Shown: positions 29,493 through 37,130 of the stretch, in pieces
Numbering within the stretch: position 1 is the first letter of the stretch
How the letters are laid out: every line of letters starts with the position of its first letter
Assembly (NCBI GenBank): GCA_018061065.1
Contig: JAGOUV010000014.1
Location: 1-37,296, forward strand
Direction of reading: 5' to 3'
Source of the DNA: Candidatus Altimarinota bacterium
GTDB taxonomy: Bacteria; Patescibacteriota; Gracilibacteria; UBA1369; UM-FILTER-53-11
DNA: 37,296 nt
Notes under the pieces: generated by a model
What the model saw: the letters and a program-made list of their open reading frames with translations, nothing else
What the model was told of the DNA's origin: nothing
Database searches by the model: none
Translations under genes and position numbers: made by a program

Positions 29493-29969
29493 ATGGAACG
29501 AACACTCGTATTGATTAAACCCGACGGCGTACAGCGCGGCCTGGTGGGTGAGGTAACGAAGCGCTTTGAATCTAAGGGTCTGAAATTGGTCGGTCTCAAG
29601 ATGATGAGTCTTGATGAGGCGATCTTACGTGAGCATTATGCACACATTGCAGACAAGCCATTTTATCCTGGTGTTGAGTCGTTTATGCGCTCTACTCCGG
29701 TGGTAGCAATGTGCTGGGAGGGTGTAGAGGTTGTTGAGGCAGTTCGTATTTTGTGTGGCATTACTAAGGCTCGCAAAGCGGATGCAGGAACAATTCGTGG
29801 TGACCTCGCCATGAGTGTTGCATGTAATGTCGTGCACGCATCAGACACGGTTGAAAATGCAGTTGCTGAAGTGAAGCGCTTTTTCAACCCAGATGAATTG
29901 TTTGAGAGCTATGACAAAACTGAGTATCTTCATGTTTATTTGGAAGAAGAGCGTGATGGTGCTCGTTAA
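29493..29969 (+). CDS. ndk: Nucleoside diphosphate kinase
   Basis: The 158-residue enzyme transfers phosphate between nucleoside tri- and diphosphates, using His115 in NVVHASDTVENA as phospho-carrier. Other hallmarks are ERTLVLIKPDGVQRGLVGEV at the start, the region of catalytic Lys9, and IRGDLAMS near 101-108. The last ~20 residues (YLEEERDGAR) extend beyond the standard ~140-residue form. It lies between the M16 peptidase and pabB with short gaps (15 and 8 bp). Its own near-leaderless promoter suggests independent expression, with read-through into pabB likely. Confidence 0.96.
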   Translation: MERTLVLIKPDGVQRGLVGEVTKRFESKGLKLVGLKMMSLDEAILREHYAHIADKPFYPGVESFMRSTPVVAMCWEGVEVVEAVRILCGITKARKADAGTIRGDLAMSVACNVVHASDTVENAVAEVKRFFNPDELFESYDKTEYLHVYLEEERDGAR

Positions 29970-29977
29970 TTGAGTCG

Positions 29978-31081
29978 ATGAATAAGCTCCTTTTTCAGTC
30001 CAACGGACAGCTCTACGAGGGTCATATCGATCCTCGTATTGAAATACCGTCGGGCGGGAAGGGGCTTTTATTTATGCGCGATTTTGTGCGAACGCATAAG
30101 CGGGCTGGTGCCGTACATGGAGAATTCCAAGAAGGCTTTGTAGGATTTGTGACGTATGAAGGCGATTCAAAGTTTGTGTATGTGAAAGAAAAGAAATTAG
30201 TAGATAGTAGTCAGTTTACGATTCTTTCTAATATAAAAAATAACCCTGATTATCCGCTTCCAGATAAGGAAAAATACTTCACGGCTCTTTCTAAAATAAA
30301 AGAGTTATTGGCGGCGGGTGAGACGTATCAAGTAAATTATTCAGAAAAATTTTCGGTGAAGTTTGGGGGTGAGGCAGAAAAAGTTTTTGCGACACTAGTC
30401 GCAAGAAATCCATCGTCGCATCAGTTTTTTTGGGAGACCGATAATTTTGCGTTGATTTCAAATTCGCCTGAGTGTTTGATGCGTATCGATGCGGCAGGAC
30501 GCATTACGACGCAACCGATAAAGGGGACAGTGCGACGTGGAAGAACCGACGAAGAAGATGCGGCTCTCGCAGGTCAGCTTCTGGCTGATGAAAAAAATGC
30601 TGCGGAGCTGGCTATGATTGTGGATCTGGAACGGAATGATATGGGAAAGGTTTGTACTGCTGGATCAGTACGCGTGATTGATGAGCGACGTATTGAAAAA
30701 TATTCGCATGTTATTCATACGGTGGCTGAAGTGGAAGGGCAACTGAATCCTGAATGCGATTGGTATGATGCATTGATGGCGCTTTTCCCCGGTGGTTCCG
30801 TGACAGGTTGTCCTAAGAAGCGCACCATGGAGATTATTAGAGAATTAGAGGGTGAGCCGCGCGGTATTTATTGTGGCAGTGCGGGATGGATTGATTTGTC
30901 GGGCGCGTGTGATTTTAATATTTTGATTCGGACGGCATGGCTTGATAAGAAAACGCATGAGCTTACATTCCGTTCAGGAGGGGGAATCGTGGCGGACTCA
31001 GGTCCACAACAGGAGTATGAAGAGGTATTGCATAAGGCTGCGGCGCTCGCGTCAACAGTTGCTGCTTGCGCGAAAGGGTAG
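29978..31081 (+). CDS. pabB: Aminodeoxychorismate synthase component I
   Basis: The 367-residue enzyme converts chorismate and ammonia (from glutamine via PabA) to 4-amino-4-deoxychorismate, the first step to p-aminobenzoate. The diagnostic PIKGT (K182), rather than the anthranilate synthase PIAGT, shows the PabB activity. ETYQVNYS, LERNDMGK, PGGSVTGCPKKR and the C-terminal GGGIVADSGPQQEYEE also match the chorismate-binding family. The N-terminal region is short, so it is the compact PabB form. No glutaminase (pabA/trpG) lies in the window, so the partner must be elsewhere or free ammonia is used. It begins 8 nt after ndk and heads the pabB-pabC-folP run. Confidence 0.93.
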   Translation: MNKLLFQSNGQLYEGHIDPRIEIPSGGKGLLFMRDFVRTHKRAGAVHGEFQEGFVGFVTYEGDSKFVYVKEKKLVDSSQFTILSNIKNNPDYPLPDKEKYFTALSKIKELLAAGETYQVNYSEKFSVKFGGEAEKVFATLVARNPSSHQFFWETDNFALISNSPECLMRIDAAGRITTQPIKGTVRRGRTDEEDAALAGQLLADEKNAAELAMIVDLERNDMGKVCTAGSVRVIDERRIEKYSHVIHTVAEVEGQLNPECDWYDALMALFPGGSVTGCPKKRTMEIIRELEGEPRGIYCGSAGWIDLSGACDFNILIRTAWLDKKTHELTFRSGGGIVADSGPQQEYEEVLHKAAALASTVAACAKG

Positions 31082-31215: not shown

Positions 31216-32019
31216 ATGATCATCTACTTAAATGGTAAATTCGTTGATGCAAAGGAGGCAAAGATCTCGATTTTTGATCCGGCCTTTCTCTATGGAGATG
31301 GAATTTTTGAGACGCTACGAACATACGATGGTGTGGTGTGGGGATTTGATGAACATATCGAGCGGCTCTTTGAATCGGCAAAAATGCGGGGCTGGAAGCT
31401 CTCGTGGAAACCTGCGGAGCTGCGTGAGTTAGTTGAGAAAATATTGAAAAAGAATGAATATAAAGAGGCGCGCATTCGTATTACCGTGACACCGGGGGTG
31501 AAGCGACCTACACTTTTTATTTGGGCACAACCGTTGGAGGAGGTTCCAGATACAGCTTATTCTAAAGGAGTTTCAGCGATTACGTTTCCGCTGGAGCGGC
31601 CGTTTCCACAAATGAAAACTTCCAGTATGCAGGCAATTTTAATCGCGCGAAATGAGATGCAGCGCAAAAAAGCGTTTGAAGCTCTCCTCATTAACACGAA
31701 AGGATTTATTACTGAGGGAACATATACCAATCTTTTTATCGTGAAAAAGAAATTTATCATCACGCCTAAGATTGGCGTGCTACTGGGGACGACGCGCGAA
31801 TTAGTCTTAAAGATGGCACGACCTTTGTTCCGAATTAAACAACGCGATATTACCTTGCGTGAGCTGTTGCGTGCCGATGAGTGTTTCCTTACTAACTCGC
31901 CGAAAGGCATGATTCCTGTAGTGAAAGTTGATGGCGAAAAAATTGGGACGGGACATGTGGGACCGGTCACAAAACATTTGATGGATAAGTTTAAGAAAAA
32001 AGTATGGAAAACGTCATGA
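31216..32019 (+). CDS. pabC: Aminodeoxychorismate lyase (PLP fold type IV)
   Basis: The 267-residue protein belongs to the fold-IV PLP family (BCAT/ADCL). It begins MIIYLNGKFVDAKEAKISIF and FDPAFLYGDGIFETLRTYDG; YGDGIFETLR is diagnostic. The Schiff-base Lys lies in MKTSSMQAILIARNEM (the K-[ST]-x-NY-like position), and EGTYTNLFIV is the PLP-phosphate loop. Beside pabB and folP it most likely releases pyruvate from aminodeoxychorismate to give p-aminobenzoate; a branched-chain or D-amino-acid aminotransferase role is less likely. An open frame extends to 31087, but the family start and the -10 at 31195-31200 favour 31216. It overlaps folP by 16 bp. Confidence 0.85.
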   Translation: MIIYLNGKFVDAKEAKISIFDPAFLYGDGIFETLRTYDGVVWGFDEHIERLFESAKMRGWKLSWKPAELRELVEKILKKNEYKEARIRITVTPGVKRPTLFIWAQPLEEVPDTAYSKGVSAITFPLERPFPQMKTSSMQAILIARNEMQRKKAFEALLINTKGFITEGTYTNLFIVKKKFIITPKIGVLLGTTRELVLKMARPLFRIKQRDITLRELLRADECFLTNSPKGMIPVVKVDGEKIGTGHVGPVTKHLMDKFKKKVWKTS

Positions 32020-32771
32020 TCATGGGTGTTTTGAATGTTACGCCGGATTCTTTTTCCGATGGTGGAAAATTTAATAGTACCGCTGCAGCAGTACGGCAAG
32101 CACGACGAATGTTGAAAGATGGTGCAAAACTTATTGATGTAGGAGGGGAGTCTACGGGGCCCACGAGCATTGATGTTAGCGAAGCGGAAGAATTGCGTCG
32201 CACGATTCCTATTATAAAAAAACTGGCTCAAATAAAGCCTAAACCCTATATATCAATTGATACGTACAAGGCAGAGGTCGCGCGTCAGGCGATTGCTGCG
32301 GGAGCTCGTATGGTAAATGATGTGACAGCATTGAGGGGAGATTTGAACATAGCGGAGGTGATCGCAAGATCGGGTGTCAAGGTGGTGCTCATGTACTCAA
32401 AAGATCCGACCGCACGAACAACGCGTACAAAAAAACAATATAAAGATGTTATTAAAACGGTGAAGGAATTTTTGCTAGAACGTGTCGCATATGCACTATC
32501 TAAAGGCATAAAAAAAGAGCAGATTATCTTGGATCCGGGGATGGGTGCTTTTGTCAGTGGTGATCCTCAATATAGTTTTGAAATTTTGCGGAGATTAGGT
32601 GAACTAAAAAAACTTGGATTCCCATTATTAGTAGGAGCATCGCGTAAAGGTTTTTTGCCCGGGAATGTTAACGAGCGCCTCGTGCCTACGCTATTGGCGC
32701 ACATGGTCGCAGCAAAAAATGGCGCTGATATCATCCGGGTACACGATGTTGTAGCTCACTCTGGACTTTAA
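32004..32771 (+). CDS. folP: Dihydropteroate synthase
   Basis: The 255-residue enzyme joins p-aminobenzoate to 6-hydroxymethyldihydropterin pyrophosphate, giving dihydropteroate. It holds the family motifs NVTPDSFSDGG (11-21), DVGGESTGP (about 46-54), SIDTYK, VNDVTAL, DPGMGAFVSG and GASRKGFLPG. These loops bind pyrophosphate and PABA and are the sulfonamide target. The P-loop-like GASRKGF is intact. Length is slightly below the usual 270-280. It starts 16 bp inside pabC (translational coupling) and converges on a small hypothetical gene, overlapping it by 4 bp. Confidence 0.96.
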   Translation: MENVMIMGVLNVTPDSFSDGGKFNSTAAAVRQARRMLKDGAKLIDVGGESTGPTSIDVSEAEELRRTIPIIKKLAQIKPKPYISIDTYKAEVARQAIAAGARMVNDVTALRGDLNIAEVIARSGVKVVLMYSKDPTARTTRTKKQYKDVIKTVKEFLLERVAYALSKGIKKEQIILDPGMGAFVSGDPQYSFEILRRLGELKKLGFPLLVGASRKGFLPGNVNERLVPTLLAHMVAAKNGADIIRVHDVVAHSGL

Positions 32772-33034
32772 TCATCCCAATCATTCAGACCATCGCAGTC
32801 ATCATTTCCAACCGAAATATGCCCAGCTTCTTTTAGGCAACGAACACGCTCATTATATTGTCTCTCAAAATCCCGTGGGTTCAGCATTTGTACAATTCCA
32901 ATGTCAGAGTCCATGAGCGCGAGCATGATCCGTACTCCAAACGGCGCTCCATTGTTCATGAGGCCGGACGTCTCTACTTTGATAATTTCTTCATCGCTGA
33001 AGTCGGCTGCTTCTCTGATAGTACGTTTTTCCAT
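32768..33034 (-). CDS. Small acidic hypothetical protein
   Basis: An 88-residue protein, not recognised. It is acidic, with a DE/DD-rich C-terminus (NDDCDGLNDWDD) and a mixed alpha/beta-looking middle (APFGVRIMLALMDSDIGIVQ). No membrane segment or signal is seen. The promoter is good: TTGACA-16-TATTGT, with the -10 ending 6 nt before the ATG, so the mRNA should be leaderless. This supports it as a real gene. It is divergent from queD, sharing the -35 region, and converges with folP. Confidence 0.7.
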   Translation of the reverse strand: MEKRTIREAADFSDEEIIKVETSGLMNNGAPFGVRIMLALMDSDIGIVQMLNPRDFERQYNERVRCLKEAGHISVGNDDCDGLNDWDD

Positions 33035-33100: not shown

Positions 33101-33451
33101 ATGAAAGTCACACGCACGTTTAGTTTCTCGGCAGCACATCATCTCACGGATTATCACGGTGCATGTGAGCGTCCGCATGGTCACACGTATCGTCTTGCCG
33201 TTACGGTTCAGGGCGCGGTTCGCGACGATGGATTGGTAATTGATTTTGTGGAGATGAAAAAAATTGTCAGTGAGAAAATTTTGAGCAAGCTCGATCACAC
33301 CGATCTCAATAACACGTTTAAAAATCCTTCAGCAGAACATATTGTTACCTGGATTTGGGAACAGCTTACGTCAGCGTTTTCTACCGTAACCTTGTATGAA
33401 GTACAATTATGGGAAGGCGATAACACCTCGGTCACTTATGATGGAAATTGA
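33101..33451 (+). CDS. queD: COG0720 enzyme (QueD / PTPS-III type) with CExxHGH motif
   Basis: The 116-residue protein is a 6-pyruvoyltetrahydropterin-synthase-fold enzyme acting on dihydroneopterin triphosphate. Zinc ligands are H13 (FSAAHHL), H26 and H28. The catalytic motif is C22-E23-R24-P25-H26-G27-H28. The Cys fits QueD (6-carboxytetrahydropterin synthase, queuosine pathway); the adjacent Glu is the mark of PTPS-III-type paralogs, which give 6-hydroxymethyldihydropterin and bypass FolB. LDHTDLNN, PSAEHI and LWEGDNTSVTY complete the active site. It stands between folP and folK, with queF and queE downstream. A dual function is thus likely but unproven. Its end overlaps the CYTH gene. Confidence 0.9.
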   Translation: MKVTRTFSFSAAHHLTDYHGACERPHGHTYRLAVTVQGAVRDDGLVIDFVEMKKIVSEKILSKLDHTDLNNTFKNPSAEHIVTWIWEQLTSAFSTVTLYEVQLWEGDNTSVTYDGN

Positions 33452-34007
33452 ACGAAAAGTTTTGGGCATTGATAAAAAAAAGCTTATTTCGTCGATTAAT
33501 AAACTGCGGCCAAAACCTAAAAAATTATTTGAGGGCCGTGTTCGTATTCGCTATTTTGATTTTAAAGATGGCTCTATTAGGGCAAAAAAAGATCTTTTAC
33601 GCGTACGTGAACTGCGCGAAAAGGGAAGGCCCGCCCGCACAGAATTAGTCTACAAAATATATAAAGGTGTGAAAAACGGGTGCAAGTGTTTTGAGGAAAT
33701 TGAGGTGGAACAGGTGGGGCCAAAGTGGTTTGAAAAACTGAGTGATTTTTTGACTGCGCTGGGATTTGTGCAAACTTTGTACTATGAAAAAAAACGAACT
33801 CACTACGCATACAAAAAAGTGAAATTTGAAATCGATGAACATCCGCGCATTCCGGCATTTGTTGAAATTGAGGCTCCTTCGCCGAAAGAAATTGACGCGG
33901 TAATAAAACTTCTTGGACTACAGAATAATGAACAGACCGCGGAGAGTATTAGTGAATTACTCGTCCGTAAATATAAAGGCATCGCACTCAACGGTTTGAT
34001 TTTTTAA
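33438..34007 (+). CDS. CYTH-domain triphosphate-tunnel protein
   Basis: The protein (189 residues) has the CYTH signature ExExK (E3, E5, K7) at its start (MMEIERKVLGID). It continues with LRVRELREKG, LVYKIYKGVK, FEEIEVE, YYEKKRTHYAYKKVKFEID and AFVEIEAPS. These charged strands form a tunnel that binds triphosphates with a metal ion. Family members include tripolyphosphatases, thiamine triphosphatase and CyaB-type adenylate cyclase; the spacing looks CyaB/ThTPase-like. The ATG at 33438 (or 33441) lies inside queD, overlapping it by about 14 bp, and folK begins 1 nt after its stop. An upstream ATG at 33396 would overlap more and add a non-family extension, so it was not used. Confidence 0.82.
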   Translation: MMEIERKVLGIDKKKLISSINKLRPKPKKLFEGRVRIRYFDFKDGSIRAKKDLLRVRELREKGRPARTELVYKIYKGVKNGCKCFEEIEVEQVGPKWFEKLSDFLTALGFVQTLYYEKKRTHYAYKKVKFEIDEHPRIPAFVEIEAPSPKEIDAVIKLLGLQNNEQTAESISELLVRKYKGIALNGLIF

Positions 34008-34008
34008 A

Positions 34009-34488
34009 ATGGCACACATCTTTCTCAGCATCGGATCGAATCTGGGTGATCGACAGCAGCTTATTAAATCGGCTGGTGAACTTTTACCTCTTACCATCAC
34101 CAAGTCGTCTTCATTGTATGAGACTGAGCCGTGGGGTGGAGCACAGGGTGGGTGGTTTCTGAACCAAGTTATTGAGGGAAAAACACCCCTTACCTCAAAG
34201 CAATTTCTCAAAGAAATCACGCGTATCGAAAAAGAGTTAGGACGCAAAAGAATCATCCAAGGTCGCTACGAACCCCGCACCATTGATATCGATATTTTGT
34301 TTTGGGACGATGAAATTATACTCCCGCCGCCACTGCATATCCCACATCCGCTCATTGGCGAACGACGGTTTGTTTTAGAGCCGCTTGTGGAGATTGCACC
34401 AGATTTTACTCATCCTGTCCTGAAAAAAACGATGAAAGAATTATTGAACGAATGCCCAGATCACTCTATAGTAAGGACGATTTCATGA
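34009..34488 (+). CDS. folK: 6-hydroxymethyl-7,8-dihydropterin pyrophosphokinase
   Basis: The 159-residue enzyme activates 6-hydroxymethyldihydropterin with ATP, giving the folP substrate. Motifs are LSIGSNLGDRQQ, SSLYETEPWGG, NQVIEGKT, ELGRKRIIQGRYEPRTIDID (about 75-95) and HPLIGERRFVLEPLVEIAP. The R-R/E-P-RTIDIDIL core holds the Mg-binding Asp pair. Length is normal. It starts 1 nt after the CYTH stop, and its own stop overlaps the transketolase start (ATGA), so queD-CYTH-folK-tkt read as one operon. Confidence 0.97.
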   Translation: MAHIFLSIGSNLGDRQQLIKSAGELLPLTITKSSSLYETEPWGGAQGGWFLNQVIEGKTPLTSKQFLKEITRIEKELGRKRIIQGRYEPRTIDIDILFWDDEIILPPPLHIPHPLIGERRFVLEPLVEIAPDFTHPVLKKTMKELLNECPDHSIVRTIS

Positions 34489-35327
34489 ATACGCCTGAGC
34501 TCAAACAACTTGCTACACAGCTGCGCCTGGATATTTTGCACATGGTTCATAAGGCAAATTCTGGCCATGTGACGACATCTCTCTCTGCTATCGACATTAT
34601 TACGATGTTGTATTTTGGTGAGGTGGACGGCGAGCGCATCTTGAAAGTGGATGCAGCCAAGCCACACTGGGATGGACGTGATTATTTCATTTTGAGTAAG
34701 GGACATGGTTGTCCGGCACTCTATGCGGTATTGGCGCATTTAGGTTTTTTCCCCAAGGAAGAGCTCAATCATCTTCGTCAGATCAACGCACTTTTAGAAG
34801 GGCATCCGGTTCGAAAAATCCCGGGAATCGAGGCAACTACTGGTCCGTTGGGTCAGGGAATTTCTTTTGCGAATGGCATCGGTATGGCGCTGAAGATGGA
34901 TAAAAAAACGAATCGTGTTTATGTAGTACTGGGCGACGGAGAGCTTCAGGAAGGCCAAATCTGGGAGTCAGCCATGACGGCGGTACAGTATAAATTGGAT
35001 AATGTGATTTGTTTTGTAGATAATAATAAATTGCAGCAGACGAATTTTGTGCGAGCGGTAAAGCCAGTTGAGCCAATAGGTCCTAAGTTTTCCGCCTTTG
35101 GTTGGCATGTGATAAATGTTCTTAACGGTCACGATTTTGATGAAATTCGCGATGCGATTCGCCGCGCGTGGAAAGTGAAGATGAAGCCGGTGATGATTGT
35201 CTGTAATACGGTGAAGGGTAAGGGAGTGGCATTTACCGAGCAGAAGCCGAATTATCATGGCGTACCGCTTTCCAAAGAAGAGATGGCGGTTGCAGTGCCG
35301 GAGCTGGAGAAGTTATTGACAAAATAG
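34485..35327 (+). CDS. Transketolase, N-terminal subunit (TPP-binding half)
   Basis: The 280-residue protein is the N-terminal half of transketolase. It contains HKANSGHVTTSLS, LSKGHGCPALYA, TTGPLGQGISFANGIGMAL and the thiamine diphosphate motif GDGELQEGQIWE…NN (about 150-181). Split transketolases need a separate C-terminal subunit, and no such gene follows here; the next gene is unrelated. The open frame extends to 34452, but the ATG at 34485 forms an ATGA overlap with folK and gives the family start. Transketolase makes erythrose-4-phosphate and pentose phosphates. A link to folate via chorismate or GTP supply is possible but inferred. Confidence 0.9.
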   Translation: MNTPELKQLATQLRLDILHMVHKANSGHVTTSLSAIDIITMLYFGEVDGERILKVDAAKPHWDGRDYFILSKGHGCPALYAVLAHLGFFPKEELNHLRQINALLEGHPVRKIPGIEATTGPLGQGISFANGIGMALKMDKKTNRVYVVLGDGELQEGQIWESAMTAVQYKLDNVICFVDNNKLQQTNFVRAVKPVEPIGPKFSAFGWHVINVLNGHDFDEIRDAIRRAWKVKMKPVMIVCNTVKGKGVAFTEQKPNYHGVPLSKEEMAVAVPELEKLLTK

Positions 35328-35349: not shown

Positions 35350-36108
35350 GTGGAAGCACCTAACTATACCGTTCGACATAAATTGAATAGGGATCTTCTT
35401 TTAGCTGCAAAAGATGGTTCTGCCTTGGCTAATGTTTTGCCGCAGCTGCAAAATGATTTTAGTGGTTTTGTTTCAAATGCAATACGACTTCAAGATAGAG
35501 AGTTACGCAGTGCCATGGTGGGGGTTACGAAATCCGCTGCACCTGAGCAGATGCAAATTACTGCCATGGAGTATCTACGCGTTTTTCATGTGCATAGTCT
35601 GGATGCATCGTGGCATGAGGATTGTGATAGCGTTCCCGCAACAATTGGTGATGCTCGCGAAAATGTTTACCGGATGCGCATGAAAGCCGACCGACCTCCA
35701 CGGATTGATAAATGGAATCTCGGTCGACACCATGACGTAACCTGTACAGATACAGAGGGGCTTTTTTCTTCGGCATATCAAAAAGGATTCTGTGTGGTGA
35801 TGAGTGTGCCTGGGGGAGTTCCGCTCCATTTCTTATTCAAGACAGATGTTGGTTCTCGACAGCTCTTACTTAATCTCGCCGCCGGTGAAATTTTTGTGCC
35901 CGATGAGAAACTTATTGATGCATTGCGCGCCAGGAGTAATAGGTGGAAACCTGAAAAAGTAAAACCTGGTCGGCATGTTCATGTTACGGCGAATGAGATT
36001 GAGCAGGAGATCGGAGCCGAGAAGATGGCTCTACGTTTTGTACGTCCCATATACCAAAATCCGAAGGTTCTACAGCTTCGCGAACAACTTTTGGACGAAT
36101 TAATGTAA
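35350..36108 (+). CDS. Hypothetical cytoplasmic protein
   Basis: A 252-residue protein, not recognised. The N-terminal ~85 residues look helical (RDLLLAAKDGSALANVLPQL). The middle has a Trp/His-rich patch (HVHSLDASWHEDCD and RIDKWNLGRHHDVTCTDTEG) and a hydrophobic beta segment (GFCVVMSVPGGVPLHFLFK). The C-terminus is charged and helical. No signal peptide or membrane helix is seen. The GTG start is chosen because a TTTAAT lies 6 nt upstream with a consensus -35 at the right distance. It sits between the transketolase half and queF, 12 bp before queF. Confidence 0.62.
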   Translation: MEAPNYTVRHKLNRDLLLAAKDGSALANVLPQLQNDFSGFVSNAIRLQDRELRSAMVGVTKSAAPEQMQITAMEYLRVFHVHSLDASWHEDCDSVPATIGDARENVYRMRMKADRPPRIDKWNLGRHHDVTCTDTEGLFSSAYQKGFCVVMSVPGGVPLHFLFKTDVGSRQLLLNLAAGEIFVPDEKLIDALRARSNRWKPEKVKPGRHVHVTANEIEQEIGAEKMALRFVRPIYQNPKVLQLREQLLDELM

Positions 36109-36120: not shown

Positions 36121-36540
36121 ATGAAGCTTTATAAAGAAGGAAAGGACTATCAACAGATTGATCTTAAGGCGTTGCGGACACATATGAAAAAGGTGGCACC
36201 ACTTGAGAGTTTTGCTTTTGAGGAGATTTCACCGGGTGAGCACTGGGTCTCGATCTCAACCCCGGAGCTGACGGCAATTTGTCCGTTTTCCGATTATCCT
36301 GACTTTGGGCGCGTGGAGATTCAGTATGTTCCGGGCAAAGTATGTTTGGAGCTGAAGTCGTTTAAAATGTATATCAATGCGTTTCGCGATATTAAAATTT
36401 TCCACGAGGCGCTAACCGAGGTGATTTTTGCGGATTTTCTGGAGGCGGTGAAGCCACAGAAAGCCTGGATCGTGGTGGATATGAATGTCCGTGGAAATGT
36501 GAAGACGGTCTGCAAAAAGACCTACAAAACGAATCATTGA
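36121..36540 (+). CDS. queF: NADPH-dependent 7-cyano-7-deazaguanine (preQ0) reductase
   Basis: The 139-residue enzyme reduces the nitrile of preQ0 to the amine of preQ1, a step unique to queuosine synthesis. C54 and D61 in ELTAICPFSDYPDFG are the catalytic Cys (thioimide) and Asp, with the same 7-residue spacing as the Bacillus enzyme. VCLELKSFKMYINAFRD, with E and K, is the NADPH/substrate signature, followed by HEALT. Size is that of the unimodular type I form. Together with queD and queE it shows that this cell makes preQ1 de novo; queC is not in the window. Confidence 0.96.
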   Translation: MKLYKEGKDYQQIDLKALRTHMKKVAPLESFAFEEISPGEHWVSISTPELTAICPFSDYPDFGRVEIQYVPGKVCLELKSFKMYINAFRDIKIFHEALTEVIFADFLEAVKPQKAWIVVDMNVRGNVKTVCKKTYKTNH

Positions 36541-36572: not shown

Positions 36573-37130
36573 ATGGAGCGACTTTTTGAAAAAGAACTTG
36601 GTATTACATTGCGGGCAGCCGTGGTGCCTCAGATGGGAGCTCTTTCGCCAAAAGACGTTCAGGCAGAAGACGCGGCTCTGAATGCCTTGCCGGAAGGTTA
36701 TGTTATGTCTGGGCGTGAAATTGCAGAATATACAGCGTTGTATCGTGCGCGCATGACTGCTGCTTTTAGGAATCCGAAAAAATATGACGCTGTCCACAAT
36801 GATCTTCTAAGATTTGGCGTTCTCATGGATGGCAAACATCCGGTGGGAACACGTACTACGGAATTTGATGACGATGACGGTGATGATAGTCTTACCTTAG
36901 ATAGATGGGCAGATGCCAATCACGGTCTTGATGACCATTATGATTTTGTCGATGCAGAACGTCGCTGGGCATTGGGGATTATGAGGCAACGTCGCGAGGC
37001 CGAGGATCGTCCTGCGGCGCACCATGATATTCGTAATGATCGCCGTGCTTATGCCGGAGGCGCTAGGGAGGCACGCAAAGCCGGACGGAGGATTAAACAG
37101 TCCAATGCAGGAGCAAGTAAGGTAAAATAA
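36573..37130 (+). CDS. Hypothetical charged protein
   Basis: A 185-residue protein, not recognised. The N-terminal half contains [20 protein letters not shown] and is helical. The centre is very acidic ([19 protein letters not shown]), and the C-terminus is basic and Arg/Lys/Ala-rich ([20 protein letters not shown]), as in nucleic-acid-binding or disordered tails. There is no signal peptide or membrane helix. It lies between queF and queE with 32-bp and 5-bp gaps and has its own TTGACA promoter, so it may not be functionally tied to queuosine. Likely lineage-specific. Confidence 0.6.
37123..37128 (+). promoter_or_regulatory. -10 element of queE
   Basis: TAAAAT, 7 nt before the queE ATG at 37136, overlapping the preceding stop. 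Weak -35; fits the leaderless pattern. Confidence 0.4.

Follow-up and report, generated by a model that had tools for sequence, protein, structure and literature searches.

Inorganic triphosphatases of the CYTH type are very fast phosphohydrolases; their role is largely elusive, and their substrate, inorganic triphosphate (PPPi), is hardly detected in cells (PMC3440374, PMC8233210). The closest described relative of the protein considered here is SaTTM (Saci_0718; PDB 7NS8-7NSF), an archaeal single-domain CYTH protein that prefers PPPi 19-fold over NTPs and for which a polyphosphate role has been suggested, no pterin-gene context being proposed (PMC8233210). NeuTTM, CthTTM, AtTTM3 and E. coli YgiF have a two-metal site and cleave the gamma phosphate of PPPi within the tunnel, as predicted for our protein, which, unlike YgiF, has no CHAD domain; a pterin source of PPPi does not figure in the papers on these enzymes, where pterin is not mentioned (PMC3440374, PMC4641920). 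Class IV adenylyl cyclases (AC-IV; CyaB, TIGR00318) have the same CYTH/triphosphate tunnel metalloenzyme (TTM) fold and can be told apart by motif: they carry HFxxxxExExK, have lost the first Arg of RxR, and show ExA in place of ExE, while thiamine triphosphatases carry W/YxRxR (PMC8233210).

The neighbouring enzyme of the locus belongs to COG0720 (PTPS). According to PMC5041015, CxxxHGH denotes PTPS-I (QueD), ExxHGH denotes PTPS-III (folate), and CExxHGH denotes hybrids serving both; PMC2229834 gives dihydroneopterin triphosphate itself as the PTPS-III substrate. FolB is absent from the bacteria with the hybrid enzyme and also from Plasmodium, and a triphosphatase partner goes unmentioned in the consulted sections of either paper. 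The NudB/FolQ dihydroneopterin triphosphate pyrophosphohydrolase is likewise a phosphohydrolase of the pterin branch, but it has a Nudix fold, removes pyrophosphate rather than phosphate, and catalyzes a step that is bypassed when PTPS-III is used. A literature search found no paper linking CYTH, PTPS and PPPi, though earlier key work may have mentioned the connection.

The window, i.e. the whole stretch of 37,296 nucleotides analysed here, is contig C11 of a 1.30 Mb genome (98.5% complete) from Candidatus Peregrinibacteria, a group of very small, uncultured bacteria to which the closest related loci also belong. The genes in question lie in the order ndk-pabB-pabC-folP-PTPS-CYTH-folK, and the features of the region are as follows:

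29493..29969, + strand: nucleoside diphosphate kinase (ndk, by similarity); conserved upstream member in families f1 and f8; the homologue in relative G010 matches Pfam NDK
29978..31081, + strand: pabB-like chorismate-binding enzyme (Pfam/NCBIfam)
31216..32019, + strand: pabC-like class IV aminotransferase (Pfam/NCBIfam)
32004..32771, + strand: folP, dihydropteroate synthase (Pfam/NCBIfam)
33101..33451, + strand: PTPS (COG0720), PTPS-I/III hybrid type by its CExxHGH motif; Pfam PTPS at 115.5 bits, QueD TIGR03367 above cut-off
33164..33184, + strand: CERPHGH motif of PTPS, with both the Cys of PTPS-I and the Glu of PTPS-III
33438..33451, + strand: overlap of the PTPS and CYTH reading frames (14 bp), a possible site of translational coupling; the same -14 overlap occurs in G003, G004 and G056
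33438..34007, + strand: CYTH/triphosphate tunnel metalloenzyme gene, 189 aa, alternative ATG at 33441 (Pfam CYTH, AlphaFold2, SaTTM as best PDB match)
33444..33458, + strand: ExExK motif (E3, E5, K7; MEIERK), predicted to bind metal and substrate; invariant in 45 aligned homologues
33600..33608, + strand: RxR motif (R55, R57; LLRVR), both Arg invariant, with Leu two residues before
33864..33872, + strand: ExE motif (E143, E145; FVEIEA), predicted second metal site, invariant; ExA in AC-IV
34009..34488, + strand: folK (HPPK, 121.6 bits), which uses the 6-hydroxymethyl-dihydropterin made by PTPS-III
34452..35327, + strand: transketolase, N-terminal half (Pfam); part of the conserved cluster of f1 and f8
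36121..36540, + strand: QueF (preQ0 reductase; QueF-II above cut-off), of the queuosine branch and putatively fed by the same PTPS

Several smaller observations concern the layout of this region. An 88-aa ORF on the minus strand (32768-33034) separates folP from PTPS and seems to be either inserted or spurious; in G003, by contrast, folP and PTPS overlap. The transketolase at 34452-35327, which adjoins folK here and is conserved in both f1 and f8, comprises the N-terminal half only. On either side of QueF lie ORFs (35350-36108, 252 aa; 36573-37130, 185 aa) with no Pfam or NCBIfam match, and in G001, G003 and G004 the transketolase directly adjoins QueF without the 252-aa ORF between them. A scan of the locus for promoters and terminators returned values close to those of shuffled sequence.

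The ORF at 33396-34007 matched Pfam CYTH at 41.2 bits (cut-off 23.2). The first-pass annotation had this ORF starting about 14 bp inside PTPS and ending 1 nt before folK, and its coordinates agree with ours (34007 is the last base of the CYTH stop, and folK begins with the ATG at 34009); only the start codon was moved, from 33396 to the ATG at 33438 or 33441. This later start is likely because homologues begin with M-x-EIExK; translation from 33396 would add 14 residues, which are not conserved. The overlap with PTPS is 14 bp from the ATG at 33438 and 11 bp from that at 33441.

The residues E3, E5, K7, R55, R57, K73, K118, R120, E143 and E145 were invariant in the 45-sequence alignment and match the SaTTM active-site set described in PMC8233210; the ExExK, RxR, KxR and ExE motifs are all shared with that enzyme, which is also of similar length. 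SaTTM was the best match in the PDB by sequence (24-29% identity), and its complexes were the top four Foldseek matches to the AlphaFold2 model (mean pLDDT 97.6). The model had the eight-stranded tunnel fold (7nsd; Z 19.4, rmsd 2.2 over 167 residues by VIA-align). Structures of the AC-IV of Yersinia aligned to the model about as well as SaTTM did (Z 18.6-19.1 as compared to 19.4), such that the fold does not separate cyclase from triphosphatase, and the class was therefore called on motifs. Besides this structural likeness, the sole NCBIfam match of the protein was to cyaB (TIGR00318), at 33.1 bits and thus below the cut-off of 57.95, and a class IV adenylyl cyclase is the label that automatic annotation would likely assign. 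However, only M-M precedes ExExK where a cyclase would have HF, the first Arg of RxR that cyclases have lost is kept, and E143-I-E145 forms ExE, not ExA. A thiamine triphosphatase would have Trp or Tyr at the thiamine-stacking position, where this protein has Leu (LxRxR). A cyclase or a thiamine triphosphatase is thus a most improbable identity for this protein. The first-pass annotation had considered that activity might be confined to one of these two; the motifs instead strongly predict a triphosphatase.

One feature sets the Peregrinibacteria proteins apart from SaTTM and other homologues. A C-terminal tail of the form L[NDS][GND]LxF (LNGLxF; window positions 33987-34004, beyond the last helix) occurred in 9 of the 10 loci from Peregrinibacteria and in none of 52 outside homologues. 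The tail appears to mark the clade rather than linkage to PTPS, since it is common to linked and unlinked members. It is possibly a partner-binding or substrate-capping element.

The pterin pathway encoded by this genome lacks one familiar enzyme. The genome encodes FolE, and QueC outside the window, FolK, FolP and QueF are encoded in the window, and a profile search of the genome returned no match to FolB. By its CExxHGH motif, the PTPS is a predicted PTPS-I/III hybrid that would replace FolB. The distribution of these genes among relatives is in keeping with such a replacement: of 96 relatives with folK, 82 had PTPS only, 9 had FolB only, 2 had both, and 3 had neither. The two genomes with both, G123 (CKNMHGH) and G137 (CNNFHGH), have a PTPS without the Glu. 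In this group (motifs were compared for the PTPS of 88 genomes) the Glu of CExxHGH thus tracks FolB loss, a pattern that a PTPS standing in for FolB would produce. In relative G011 (locus L013), folK, folP and CYTH were present and PTPS, FolB and FolE gave no match, a pattern that could reflect an incomplete assembly or pterin salvage.

This pathway bears on a second role that had been suggested for the CYTH protein, that of trimming dihydroneopterin triphosphate in a NudB/FolQ-type step. The gene is embedded in a pterin operon, and TTM enzymes can cleave organic triphosphates such as ATP. With no FolB, however, trimming here would yield a dephosphorylated pterin without an aldolase to act on it, and no NudB-type step is missing from the predicted pathway, because PTPS-III acts on the triphosphate itself (PMC2229834). 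The chemistry also differs: the gamma phosphate is the group cleaved by TTM enzymes, and the Nudix enzyme known for this step removes pyrophosphate instead (cited in PMC5041015). Across the genomes, trimming would be needed in the 11 with an above-cut-off FolB, and 10 of these had no CYTH match (the exception being G010). The CYTH gene instead accompanies the pathway in which trimming is unnecessary. On this distribution we rejected a NudB-type step, which we consider very unlikely.

In contrast, the proposal that CYTH and PTPS form a conserved neighbourhood in relatives was borne out, within one order. A CYTH orthologue (>160 bits) was found in 24 of the 89 genomes of the order examined, spanning eight families, and in 14 of these genomes, from four families, it lay directly downstream of PTPS. 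The two genes adjoined each other in every one of the six f1 genera (family f1, G000-G005) and in six of the seven genomes of family f8 (G012, G025, G035, G041, G047, and G056); in the seventh (G051), the PTPS/CYTH junction fell at contig ends. The distance between the two genes varied between -14 and +90 bp, and in 11 of the 14 genomes it was no more than +14. Most of the wider order ndk-(pabB)-pabC-folP-PTPS-CYTH-folK-transketolaseN is retained in f1 and f8, which shows stable synteny, non-pterin genes included. More telling than this synteny is the persistence of the pair in one genome each of families f16 (G031) and f9 (G013), where folK is on another contig; the G013 contig with the pair is only 3 kb long.

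Other orthologues occupy related settings. The order in G017 is PTPS-Vut_1-CYTH, and Vut_1 is directly upstream of CYTH in G028 and G042 (loci L077, L094, and L021); the Vut_1 family (putative vitamin uptake) includes queuosine-precursor transporters. One gene separates folP from CYTH in G011, folP is near CYTH in G024, and one long ORF lies between PTPS and CYTH in G020. In a tree of the CYTH proteins, the linked copies were close to one clade, with a few losses of linkage. The pair was found in this order only. Among 64 SaTTM-like CYTH loci in public genomes, which were gathered by an alignment-based scan (a single-sequence scan with the window protein gave no match), PTPS adjoined in all 10 from the Peregrinibacteria group and in none of the 54 others. 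A survey of 380 Patescibacteria genomes found no PTPS-CYTH pair outside the order; in G281 the two genes lie on separate contigs. The large sister family f15 (about 30 genomes) has the same CExxHGH PTPS beside folK and no CYTH orthologue. Because f15 keeps PTPS without it, CYTH is dispensable for PTPS, and the pairing is a lineage-specific arrangement. Overall, PTPS was present in 22 of the 24 genomes with CYTH as compared to 46 of the 65 without (Fisher p = 0.05, kinship ignored), a weak association that we did not use as support.

We infer the activity of the CYTH protein, its substrate, and its coupling to PTPS, and the proposed sequence of events is as follows: PTPS would convert dihydroneopterin triphosphate to 6-hydroxymethyl-dihydropterin for FolK and to 6-carboxy-tetrahydropterin for queuosine, each turnover leaving a triphosphate: in the QueD reaction PPPi, and in the folate reaction either glycolaldehyde triphosphate or PPPi. 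As a SaTTM-type hydrolase with a triphosphate tunnel and a need for Mg2+, the CYTH protein would cut the terminal (gamma) phosphate, yielding PPi and Pi from PPPi, and the PPi would then pass to the membrane pyrophosphatase. The best explanation of the locus is that the CYTH protein clears the triphosphate by-product of the PTPS encoded upstream, a role to which we give an even chance. The first-pass annotation had gone further, with the CYTH protein removing PPPi to drive the PTPS reaction; removal of the by-product stands as the best reading, and clearing is safer wording than driving. Its identification of that by-product as PPPi also needs qualification. The QueD reaction of the same enzyme releases PPPi and acetaldehyde, but the folate (PTPS-III) reaction may give glycolaldehyde triphosphate, which in enzyme nomenclature is the PTPS-III product, rather than PPPi. 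The CYTH protein could be dedicated to glycolaldehyde triphosphate, (triphosphooxy)acetaldehyde, from the PTPS-III retro-aldol reaction, or to a mixture of this compound with PPPi; it would then serve in metabolite repair, with physical or translational coupling to PTPS. We regard so specific a role as rather unlikely; if true, the substrate of a triphosphate tunnel enzyme would have a defined origin in metabolism.

Clearance of the PTPS by-product draws its support from the tight adjacency of the pair in 14 genomes of four families, two of which have folK elsewhere, from the orthologues elsewhere that adjoin or neighbour other pterin or deazapurine genes (Vut_1, folP), from the invariant catalytic residues that match SaTTM, an enzyme with a preference for PPPi, and from the combination of a CExxHGH PTPS with missing FolB. 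The inventory of pyrophosphatases is also relevant. In a search that covered the family I soluble and the membrane pyrophosphatases, none of the f1 and f8 genomes matched the former and nearly all carried the latter. In E. coli, most PPPi hydrolysis is by soluble pyrophosphatase (PMC3440374); a dedicated triphosphatase thus makes sense in f1 and f8, where family I gave no match. The argument is weakened by f15, in which most of the genomes checked also have no family I enzyme. More broadly, among 59 relatives nearly all have the membrane pyrophosphatase without the family I soluble one; the soluble enzyme occurs in six, of which only G037 also has the membrane one.

The main competitor is a general housekeeping triphosphatase, acting on PPPi, NTPs or short polyphosphates, that owes its place in the operon to inherited gene order and has no dedicated tie to PTPS. 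CYTH proteins of the SaTTM type occur widely without a neighbouring PTPS, in Patescibacteria, in DPANN archaea and in other bacteria (0 of the 54 loci above, and no case in the phylum sample beyond the order), and f15 lives without the orthologue. Within the f1 and f8 cluster, ndk and transketolase are as conserved as CYTH, and the PTPS-CYTH linkage may in part be inherited gene order. Two genomes also speak against clearance, in that G010 has FolB, a CYTH orthologue and no PTPS, and G011 has CYTH and no PTPS. Gene order by itself, however, fits less well with the persistence of the pair in f16 and f9 with folK elsewhere, with relocated CYTH copies that adjoin or neighbour Vut_1 or folP, or with PTPS-CYTH gaps that are tight and often overlapping, and the clade's own tail hints at some specialisation. 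A housekeeping role is a real possibility, although we lean against it.

The chemistry proposed here, clearance of a triphosphate left by PTPS, is conventional; what the pairing offers is a concrete answer on where CYTH enzymes obtain their substrate. Triphosphate has a defined source in the PTPS/QueD enzymes, and a conserved, often overlapping gene pair makes the origin of PPPi directly testable. For these Patescibacteria genes, the motifs argue against the automatic label of class IV adenylate cyclase. For the widespread enzyme family to which they belong, the pairing with PTPS suggests a genuine role in metabolism.
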